A stretch of DNA of 38,921 bases from Flavobacteriales bacterium (GTDB taxonomy: Bacteria > Bacteroidota > Bacteroidia > CAIKAF01): positions 1 through 38,921 of the forward strand of contig JAOABX010000024.1 in NCBI GenBank assembly GCA_026418175.1. The letters are read 5' to 3'. The notes below the pieces were generated by a model, which saw only the letters and a program-made list of their open reading frames with translations, was not told the origin of the DNA and searched no databases. Position numbers and translations under genes: made by a program. Of the stretch, positions 7,342 through 9,779 are shown in pieces; within the stretch, counting starts at the first letter, position 1, and each line of letters opens with the position of its first letter.

Positions 7342-7932
7342 ATGCAAATACTCGGACAAGCACTACACGAATTTAAACAGCAACTGGATAATAAAAGCCT
7401 GAAATTCCACTTAAAAACAGGATTTAAAACACTGGATTATTTTGCTGGAGGTTATTATCGAGGTGAAATGACGGTAGTAGCCGGACGTCCAGGCATGGGA
7501 GTTACTTCCTTTTTACTGGAATCAGCCATAAATATGGTAAAAAACCACGGATACCGAGGGGCTTATATTTCGGTGGATCATAATGAACAACTCATCCAGG
7601 CCAAGTTGATGTCGATTCTGACCAATGTTCCGGTAAAAAATTTACTGGATGAAAATCTGAAAAAGGAAACACTCAAAAAGATTACGTTAACGGATGATCA
7701 ACTATCACTTCCCTTATATGTTCATGCACAAACCAATCGGATGCTGGAAGAGCTGATGAATGAAATTATGGTTCTACACAGCCAGCACCCATTGGATTTT
7801 GTAATGGTAGATACCGTTCAGAATATTATCCTTACCGAACGAAATCATTTCTGCAGCCAGTTTGATCATTTTAATGAAATGCTGCTTCATCTCACCACAT
7901 TTTTCAGAGAGCAAGATATCGCTTTAATCTGA
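7342..7932 (+). CDS. DnaB-like helicase core domain, first fragment, Walker A lysine replaced
   Basis: Resembles only the C-terminal RecA-fold half of the replicative helicase DnaB. The N-terminal primase-binding domain is absent: the match starts at about residue 25 (TGFKTLDYFAGGYYRGEMTVVAGRPGMG). The Walker A motif reads GRPGMGVTS, where DnaB has GKT or GKS, so the catalytic lysine is Val. The Walker B-like strand is LDFVMVDTVQ (normally ending in IDYLQ). The frame ends at a TGA (7930-7932), but without it the same frame continues through FSRKVEDRGGDKRP, typical DnaB sequence, into the next fragment. TGA is a normal stop here (murG and murC use it). Either a decaying paralogue or an inactive ATPase. 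It lies directly upstream of the retron-like RNA. Confidence 0.75.
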   Translation: MQILGQALHEFKQQLDNKSLKFHLKTGFKTLDYFAGGYYRGEMTVVAGRPGMGVTSFLLESAINMVKNHGYRGAYISVDHNEQLIQAKLMSILTNVPVKNLLDENLKKETLKKITLTDDQLSLPLYVHAQTNRMLEELMNEIMVLHSQHPLDFVMVDTVQNIILTERNHFCSQFDHFNEMLLHLTTFFREQDIALI

Positions 7933-7986
7933 GGTTCGCGGTTTAGCCGGAAGGTAGAAGACCGGGGAGGTGATAAAAGACCGTAT

Positions 7987-8298
7987 ATGTCTGATATCAG
8001 CATCAGCGGAATGTTAGAAGAAAAAGCAGAAAAAGTACTATTTCTGTATCGTCCGGAATATTACGGGATAGAACGTGATGAAAACGGAATCATGATGAAT
8101 GGCATTATGCATGTAATTATTGCCAAAAACCAATCAGGCCCTACCGGCGATGTTACCTTATTTGCCGGCGAACACCGGAGTCATCCGTTCCGGGTAGTTG
8201 ATCCGAAATCAGATGATGAATATCTCAAAAAATACATTTACGAAGAGGATGATTTATATGAGGAAGAAGAAGATGATGATGATGATGCGCCTTTTTAA
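7987..8298 (+). CDS. DnaB-like helicase core domain, second fragment
   Basis: In the same frame as the preceding fragment and separated from it only by the TGA at 7930-7932. It carries the DnaB-like tail: SDISISGMLEEKAEKVLFLYRPEYY (family form: SDLRESG.IEQDAD.V.FLYRPEYY) and HVIIAKNQSGPTGDVTLFA (family form: IIAKNRNGPTG). The end is an unusual acidic tail, EEDDLYEEEEDDDDDAPF, not part of the helicase fold. Coding would truly resume at 7933; the ATG at 7987 is only the next possible restart. Conservation after the stop suggests the nonsense change is recent or is a sequencing error. The gene ends 38 bases before the retron-like RNA. Confidence 0.65.
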   Translation: MSDISISGMLEEKAEKVLFLYRPEYYGIERDENGIMMNGIMHVIIAKNQSGPTGDVTLFAGEHRSHPFRVVDPKSDDEYLKKYIYEEDDLYEEEEDDDDDAPF

Positions 8299-8335
8299 AC
8301 ACATATTTAATTAAATAAAAATCTCCATGAGATAC

Positions 8336-8488
8336 CCTGTGCTGCTAAAATCATGCGTCATACTTTAGGACCCGTGCCTAAGAAACAGGCTGTGCACCTG
8401 CGGTCTGGTTGTTAAAAGTCGAAGTAAATCGATGTTGCGTCGGCACGACGCAACATCGGAGTAAATCATAGATGAGGGGCAGCACAGG
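8336..8488 (+). ncRNA. Retron-like msr-msd RNA
   Basis: The 195-base gap before the reverse transcriptase has the layout of a retron RNA. The ends are a perfect 10-base inverted pair, CCTGTGCTGC (8336-8345, a1) and GCAGCACAGG (8479-8488, a2), which would close the RNA. Inside, the msr-like part holds two short hairpins: TTAGG/CCTAA with a 7-base loop (8365-8381) and CAGG/CCTG with a 7-base loop (8386-8400). The msd-like part is a perfect 13-bp hairpin with a GCA loop (8430-8458, arms CGATGTTGCGTCG and CGACGCAACATCG), flanked by the 8-base direct repeat AGTAAATC (8423 and 8460). The a2 end lies five bases before the RT start. GC content is higher than the surroundings. The exact priming G cannot be fixed by eye. 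Confidence 0.8.
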
Positions 8489-8493
8489 AATTC

Positions 8494-9660
8494 ATGGATA
8501 AAAAAGAATTTATGCCTTGGAATAACGATTGGAAACCCTTGTTTGAATTAGATGCTGGTATTTTCTTCCGACAATTTGGGTTCACAGATGCGGCCGAAGC
8601 CCTGAAATTTTTAAATTCGGAAAAAGCTTACCGGAAAATATCCATTCCCAAACGGAATGGTTCTGCACGCATCGTGTATCAACCGCACAAGAAGGTGGAA
8701 GCCATGCAGCAAGCCATTAAACCGCTGTTGGATAAATTATATGTTCAGGCCTGTGAAGTACGCGACTTCTTTACCAAAGTACCCGCAGTACCTATCCCCT
8801 GGGAAGATAAGTTTCGGCAGCAGGCATTACATAATAAGTTTCCGAAAAGCGACGACTTCATACAAGCTTTAAAAATTAAATATCAAGATCAGATAAACAG
8901 AATCAGAAATAAATGTGGAAAAGATGCTGTTAAATATGTAAACCGAGTATTCAGTGAAGTATATGAAAAAGATCATGACTACTACTATTATTTTCAGGGA
9001 TGCAGTAAAGAACATCCGTTCAAACAGGTAATGCAGTTTTATGGCCCGGTAACTGTTCATGGACATAAAGCTGTAAAAAAACCCTACCTGCTGAAATGCG
9101 ATATTCAGAATTTCTATCCGTCCATCACGCATAAAAAACTGTATTCAGAATTAATTAAATCACCTTTTAAAGACCGAATCAGCGAGGAAACTGCTGCTGT
9201 GATCGTGGCCGTTGCCATGCACAAAAAACGGCTGGTACAAGGTTCCTGCATTTCACCGGTATTGGCAAACATATTTATGTTTCATACGGATTACTTCTTT
9301 CGGGAAAAATTGAGCAGTTATCGAAATATAACTTACTATAGCCGGTATGTGGATGATTTAATTTTTGCATCCTATGCGCTGATAGACAAAGAGAAAATCC
9401 TTGAACAGATCAGCAACCAGTTAAAACCATTGGGGTTAAACCTTCATCCGGAGAAAACCCGGTATCTGAAACCGCATCAGAAAAAAATAGTAACCGGCAT
9501 GGTGGTGAATGAAAAACTGAATGTGGACAGAAGGTATATCCGGAGGATACGTGCCATGCTGCATGATGCGGAGCAAAACGGCATACAAATGGCCTGCTGG
9601 CATCATAACGGCGGATCACTAACCGCGATTACACCAGACGATAAAAAAAATTCCTGCTGA
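8494..9660 (+). CDS. Retron-type reverse transcriptase (C-terminus frameshifted)
   Basis: An RNA-directed DNA polymerase. Motifs in order: RKISIPKRNGSARIVYQ (47-63), LLKCDIQNFYPSI with Asp203 (199-211), VQGSCISPVLANI (248-260), the catalytic YVDD (285-288), LGLNLHPEKTRYL (313-325) and VTGMVVN (333-339). The last motif and the QG...SP form are typical of retron RTs. About 90 extra residues (roughly 92-180) separate the first motif block from the catalytic Asp, where compact retron RTs have a short loop, and I see no NAxxH motif. The frame ends at TGA 9658-9660 after an A8 run (9643-9650); a +1 frame continues with a normal retron RT end. Preceded by its putative msr-msd RNA. It would make multicopy single-stranded DNA, usually part of anti-phage defence. 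Confidence 0.88.
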   Translation: MDKKEFMPWNNDWKPLFELDAGIFFRQFGFTDAAEALKFLNSEKAYRKISIPKRNGSARIVYQPHKKVEAMQQAIKPLLDKLYVQACEVRDFFTKVPAVPIPWEDKFRQQALHNKFPKSDDFIQALKIKYQDQINRIRNKCGKDAVKYVNRVFSEVYEKDHDYYYYFQGCSKEHPFKQVMQFYGPVTVHGHKAVKKPYLLKCDIQNFYPSITHKKLYSELIKSPFKDRISEETAAVIVAVAMHKKRLVQGSCISPVLANIFMFHTDYFFREKLSSYRNITYYSRYVDDLIFASYALIDKEKILEQISNQLKPLGLNLHPEKTRYLKPHQKKIVTGMVVNEKLNVDRRYIRRIRAMLHDAEQNGIQMACWHHNGGSLTAITPDDKKNSC

Positions 9661-9779
9661 AAATACAGGGAATGATTGCCTGGGTAGAGCAGGTACGCGG
9701 CACGCTTGATCCATTATCGGTGAAACTGCGAGATAACTGGGATAAACAATTCAATTTATGGAAGCATAAAAATCTTTAA
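9651..9779 (+). pseudogene. Displaced C-terminal end of the reverse transcriptase
   Basis: If one A is added to the A8 run at 9643-9650, the reading frame continues past the TGA for about 43 codons. It reads KFLLKIQGMIAWVEQVRG, then DPLSVKLRDNWDKQF, and stops at TAA 9777-9779. The 'L.GMIA.V..VRG' pattern is the usual thumb-end sequence of retron RTs, so this belongs to the same gene. The complete protein would be about 430 residues. Causes could be a sequencing or assembly error in the homopolymer, a real mutation, or slippage during transcription or translation. Confidence 0.75.

Follow-up and report, generated by a model that had tools for sequence, protein, structure and literature searches.

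A retron of probably unclassified type in a Flavobacteriales bacterium, with a DnaB-derived protein as candidate effector

A DnaB-like gene, an msr-msd RNA and a reverse transcriptase (RT) gene, in that order, form a unit at positions 7342-9779 of a 38,921-nucleotide stretch of DNA from a Flavobacteriales bacterium (contig JAOABX010000024.1; the whole stretch is called the window here). Retrons are gene units that turn their own small RNA into DNA, their usual role being the sensing of viruses, and the unit is almost certainly a retron. It probably belongs to an unclassified type, with the DnaB-derived protein as candidate effector. The three parts are kept together in a fixed order, the RNA is structurally constrained, and the RT is of the retron kind. 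The best explanation, to which we assign a probability of about 0.6, is an unnamed retron type in which the RT and its msDNA would restrain the DnaB-like protein and release of that protein would block replication, the copy in the window being probably inactive. The original prediction had already identified a retron here, and this identification holds, with all RNA elements in place and an RT whose profile matches, fold and tree position are retron-like.

When the RT and the DnaB-like protein were each searched independently in 395 genomes of the class, their matches lay side by side in many of these genomes. A DnaB-like open reading frame (ORF) on the same strand is found directly upstream of the RT in all 16 top RT matches of the class (16/16, the window and its congener L003 included). 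The succession of DnaB-like gene, gap with conserved RNA and RT recurs at all 14 of the other class RT matches, at L003, and on the viral contig L081, which gave the best match among 2.9 million viral contigs scanned and preserves the order of the window. Of these 17 loci one is the viral contig, the others being spread over about ten families of the class; their gene neighborhoods differ, and comparison of neighboring ORFs showed that only the DnaB-like gene and the RT are common to all of them. The controls were 171 loci with other retron RTs, including plasmid (14 loci) and viral retron RTs. The arrangement appeared among them on one viral contig only, present twice (L081 and L183), and a DnaB-like gene upstream of the RT was found at none of the other 169 control loci; one further control carries a DnaB gene 3 kb off, on the opposite strand. 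The DnaB-like protein is, with high confidence, the functional partner of the retron. Since the sole constant partner is a shortened relative of DnaB, a phage-defense unit aimed at DNA replication is suggested.

No flanking genes of defense-island type were common to the loci, and a WYL-type regulator occurs near 5 of the 17, in variable position. WYL/HTH-like regulators were noted at L006:5986-6891, where the gene is directly upstream of the DnaB-like gene, at L081:1764-2834 and at L077:3904-4908. Four orphan DnaB-like matches without an adjacent RT (L073-L076) were left out of the locus set. One of them (L073:1651-2712) encodes a protein 58% identical to the retron-linked protein of L066 and precedes genes for NUDIX-like and 929-aa proteins on a short contig; it may be what is left of a retron after loss of the RT, or may belong to a different defense association. 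The short DnaB-like ORF at L075:5784-6839 precedes that of a 1052-aa protein, possibly SIR2-like and with an LGAGAS start, in a setting that looks like a mobile element.

The msr-msd non-coding RNA of the window extends over 8336-8488 on the forward strand. Its outer arms, a1 (CCTGTGCTGC, 8336-8345) and a2 (GCAGCACAGG, 8479-8488), are perfectly complementary over 10 bases both when read directly and in the fold, and a2 ends five bases short of the ATG of the RT at 8494. Two short msr hairpins fold at 8365-8381 (arms 8365-8369/8377-8381), with a sequence kept in L003, and at 8386-8407 (arms 8386-8393/8400-8407), the latter being the counterpart of the family hairpin GGTTGTGTTCCTGCAACC in a 16-locus alignment. 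The msd forms a perfect 13-bp hairpin (8430-8458; arms 8430-8442/8446-8458) accompanied by an 8-base direct repeat, AGTAAATC, with copies at 8423-8430 and 8460-8467. Each of these elements had been foreseen in the original prediction, and the folding that it proposed as a check recovered the claimed structure at -62.2 kcal/mol, against -44.1 +/- 4.3 kcal/mol for shuffled sequences (z = -4.2; 0/200 as good). An inner helix lies within the a1/a2 pair: its 5' strand, ATCAT, is followed by G8355, the predicted branching guanosine (8350-8355 together), and pairs with ATGAG at 8472-8476. The 195-nt gap was dinucleotide-shuffled 2000 times: a 10-bp inverted repeat with arms at least 90 nt apart arose 3 times and a 13-bp hairpin never, which places both the pairing of a1 with a2 and the hairpin of the msd beyond chance.

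The same architecture recurs across relatives. At all loci the gap between both genes is occupied by an inverted repeat, in most cases 9-13 bp long; it encloses a conserved msr composed of TTATG, a small hairpin, and then GGTTGTGTTCCTGCAACC or a variant. A covariance model (R1) was built from 11 loci, with the window, L003, L059, L061 and L071 kept out. Searched against 150 kb, it returned the five held-out loci as its top five matches (41 to 26 bits), all of them in the gap where the RNA was predicted, and the next match reached 13.4 bits. The window RNA was matched at 8339-8485 (26.3 bits, E = 0.0043), and the RNA of the viral contig L081 was also recovered (26.6 bits). The arms for the covariation analysis were picked by eye, which biases the a1/a2 counts towards pairing; the inner helix, anchored by its position beside an invariant G, covaries to a degree reached by none of 2000 shuffles: its two strands change together from U-A to C-G, G-C or A-U, and position 3 shows all four Watson-Crick types over the 17 loci. 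The RNA structure is conserved through compensatory changes. The G that follows the inner helix is invariant across the 17 loci (G8355 in the window) and is predicted as the likely branch point. RT relatives devoid of the RNA had been named in advance as the finding that would count against a retron; a1/a2, msr hairpin and msd are located upstream of the RT in every case examined.

Rfam holds no family matching the window RNA. A covariance search of the 395 genomes returned no match but missed even the window's own genome, so that its empty result carries no weight; a single-sequence genome scan gave no match, and an alignment-based scan gave the congener and, besides it, just one distant RT, from Clostridia. 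Within the otherwise variable msd, GATGCTCACTGCGTTCCGC or close variants are common to L062, L063, L067, L068 and L072, and this motif could act as an element by which the msDNA is recognized.

The RT gene as it stands (8494-9660, forward strand) encodes 388 aa and contains the retron motifs VTGMVVN and QG...SP, as had been predicted, along with YVDD; the VTG motif is invariant in the 16 family RTs. PADLOC retron RT models match it at best with 2e-48, those of types XI, XII and I-C leading (2e-48 to 3e-44), but many types score closely and the top models belong to other, fused systems, so that the scores carry no type-specific fit. A profile of the 16 family RTs searched against the PDB gave Ec67 (5e-63) and Ec86 (3e-55), with group II introns at 1e-15; the retron RTs of Kva2, Ec83 and Ec78 likewise outscored group II and DRT RTs by a wide margin. 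The predicted RT structure (pLDDT 77) retrieved the retron RTs Eco2, Ec86, Eco7 and Ec78 as best Foldseek matches, with Eco2 at the top, and in NCBIfam the retron St85 RT model (4e-38) preceded group_II (4e-20) and Drt3a (2e-19). Family RTs measure about 330-430 aa, and the PADLOC and NCBIfam matches, the latter below cut-offs, end inside the RT part; neither resource revealed a fused Toprim, protease or TIR domain in them. The closest relative, and the sole close one found, is the RT of the congener L003 (47% identity). Both RTs stand apart from the other family members: they have some 100 additional residues between RT motifs, their NAxxH motif is degenerate, and YVDD takes the place of YADD.

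The phylogeny that the original prediction had proposed as a test groups the RT with retron RTs and not with group II or Abi/DRT RTs. All 17 DnaB-associated RTs fall in one branch (support 97/99), together with one very long CRISPR-linked row, and their constraint to a single clade was not rejected (p-AU 0.31). The single supported branch indicates that the DnaB association most likely arose once or a few times and was then kept. The CRISPR-linked row is a Haliscomenobacter RT (L167, NC_015512.1) with cas1/cas2 on one side and type III-B cmr genes on the other, and the ORF upstream of it does not encode a DnaB-like protein. This CRISPR-linked, retron-like RT was already known (PMC8934634).

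The original prediction saw no effector and proposed that it might be new, fused or lost. It had missed the conserved gene for a DnaB-like RecA-fold ATPase directly upstream, at 7342-8298 on the forward strand; of its options, that of a new effector fits best, given this gene's presence at 17/17 loci, with the qualification that the window copy is interrupted. Pfam DnaB_C matches both halves of the frame (1e-21 and 2e-16), and the whole frame matches at 1.3e-44 when one TGA is allowed. An intact 307-aa homologue occupies the equivalent position in the congener (L003:298-1221), and ORFs of 309-446 aa are found at 14 further loci. The model of the L003 protein (pLDDT 79) corresponds to the C-terminal domain of DnaB, which is also its top fold match (6e-19). 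The alignment of TIGR00665 with DnaB-like proteins begins no earlier than position 115 or 165 of 435, which means that the N-terminal collar is absent, and its scores (113 and 293 bits) lie under the equivalog cut-off of 385. By sequence and fold, the protein is a member of the DnaB family, yet not a full-length replicative DnaB. It shares with the replicative helicase the C-terminal RecA-fold domain, the DnaB_C motifs and the fold, but measures about 310-370 aa in most members, lacks the N-terminal domain and has partly degenerate catalytic residues. Since the genome of the window encodes its own full-length DnaB elsewhere, 7342-8298 represents a second copy with a different job.

The roles of the Walker A, catalytic Glu and Arg finger residues are those of DnaB in general. 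Walker A is intact in 14 of the 17 proteins; its Lys is replaced by Val in the window (GRPGMGVTS) and L003 and by Arg in L081. The Glu of the DnaB FSLEMS motif is Asp in most members, the SQLSR and KNR motifs are mostly kept but altered in the window and L003, and the Arg finger is altered in the window, L003, L059 and L062. Loss of the Walker A Lys and the change of the catalytic Glu to Asp make a motor-driven toxin doubtful, at least in the branch of the window, L003 and L081.

By the preferred explanation, the RT would prime from the 2'-OH of G8355 and copy the msd into msDNA. By analogy with tripartite retrons, the complex of RT and msDNA would keep the DnaB-like protein inactive, and disturbance of the msDNA by a phage would free it. 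The freed DnaB motor domain, without its N-terminal collar, could then block replication; most likely it would join the DnaB hexamer or its loader, or compete with them, and the infected cell or the phage would cease replicating. Loss of the collar together with weakened catalysis suggests a component that would disrupt the replicative hexamer or interfere with its loading, a role that we put forward as rather doubtful in this specific form. Tentatively, and at somewhat less than even odds, we envisage a retron type not described before, whose msDNA-guarded effector is a domesticated DnaB motor domain that stops DNA replication when a phage infects, some branches having turned it into a non-hydrolysing, dominant-negative part of the ring. 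The same substitutions in Walker A, catalytic Glu and Arg finger, which may leave binding in place while weakening catalysis, would also suit a protein that is not a toxin but a sensor, a scaffold or a ring that handles msDNA; as a sensor, a RecA-fold ring on single-stranded msDNA might monitor replication or phage single-strand binding proteins. No second conserved gene offers itself as the toxin, which favors a non-toxic role in that no rival toxin is visible and speaks against it in that the unit would then have no effector. Most members moreover retain Walker A, SQLSR and KNR motifs, and we regard this non-toxic role as unlikely.

Two other readings touch the foundations of the proposal. 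Were the RT and the DnaB-like gene neighbors by chance or through common mobility, the retron would act alone, and the broken DnaB-like frame of the window, which may be dispensable there, fits such an arrangement; the pairing at every one of the 17 loci amid varied neighborhoods, and its absence from the 169 other controls, render it highly improbable. The insertion between motifs and the degenerate NAxxH of the window and L003 RTs could hint at an enzyme that is not of retron type at all (a group II intron, DRT/UG/Abi or CRISPR RT), but profiles, folds, tree, VTG motif and a covarying msr-msd RNA all contradict this, and we give it hardly any credence.

A further question is whether the window copy still functions within the proposed retron type. 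An in-frame TGA at 7930-7932 splits the DnaB-like frame where L003 has TGT (Cys). The RT frame that starts at 8494 stops at 9660 owing to a frameshift at a run of eight A (9643-9650), and the remainder of the C-terminus, FLLKIQGMIAWVEQVR..., continues out of frame over 9661-9779 (forward strand), where it aligns with the L003 C-terminus FLKRLQGMISWVQYVR and contains the conserved stretch FLxxxQGMIxWVxxVR. The span to 9779 given in the original prediction is thus correct for RT homology and incorrect for a single frame. With one lesion in each protein gene, and with Val in place of the Walker A Lys, the system of the window is probably inactive or decaying. Finding a TGA and a frameshift within 2.4 kb, while the RNA is intact, suggests either that the decay is recent or that the assembly contains errors. 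Reading the TGA as selenocysteine was considered and rejected, given that the genome contains no SelA and the tRNA-Sec match is a tRNA-Ser(TGA). That the window holds a dead remnant of a family functional in its relatives, with the TGA as a nonsense codon, is a probable reading and is compatible with the best explanation at family level: the Cys codon of L003, the removal of the conserved C-terminal motif and the missing selenocysteine machinery support it, while the wholly intact RNA, and the single-base nature of both lesions, which assembly error could yield too, weigh against it.

Retron types are defined by their effectors. The RT core resembles those of retrons I-C (Ec67/Eco2), XI (RT-protease) and XII (RT-TIR), which gave the best PADLOC scores, but those RTs carry a fused C-terminal effector, whereas RTs of the window family end after the thumb and have their partner encoded upstream by a gene of its own. 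A separate partner gene in an operon with msr-msd and RT is likewise found in retron II-A (Ec86/Eco1) and further tripartite retrons, and a sequester-and-release logic is presumed by analogy to be common to them and the DnaB-linked retron. Their partners are a nucleoside deoxyribosyltransferase, ATPase-HNH, PRTase, TM or HEPN proteins, in place of which a DnaB-family RecA-fold ATPase is found here. Thirteen retron types are recognized (PMC12548924). In Retron-Sda1, too, the retron RT is from Bacteroidota and the partner (HipA/DUF3037) is not a standard one, but its RT and RNA are III-A1-like and its partner genes are others (PMC12548924).

The retron effector models of PADLOC 2.0.0 (2023) gave no match to 15 DnaB-like proteins, for which PADLOC returned only mad8, weakly (best 8e-8). 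With the RNA absent from Rfam and the partner absent from PADLOC 2023, current scans would report a lone RT whose effector is missing, which is also what the original prediction described. A literature search found no mention of a retron-DnaB pairing; the founding retron classification lay outside its reach, which leaves about one chance in four that the association is already catalogued somewhere. The replisome, or its loading, is a target absent among the retron effectors named in the surveyed literature, and a housekeeping helicase was possibly recruited into a putative immune unit. Intact loci for its study are available, G328, G287, G338 and G061 among them.

Some observations concern the surroundings of the loci. 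A PDC-M16A/M16B gene pair (TOTE conflict system), a candidate defense system, lies at 64-2881 of the window, 4.5 kb upstream of the unit. At L077, a retron RT that has no DnaB-like gene is followed, about 4 kb further downstream, by an ORF with an M16B-like start, KELRQSGKLDEALQMANQAL. Finally, the contig of the congener (L021, JACSSC010000036.1) is titled Candidatus Competibacteraceae; its genome groups in the genus of the window, and the name looks wrong.
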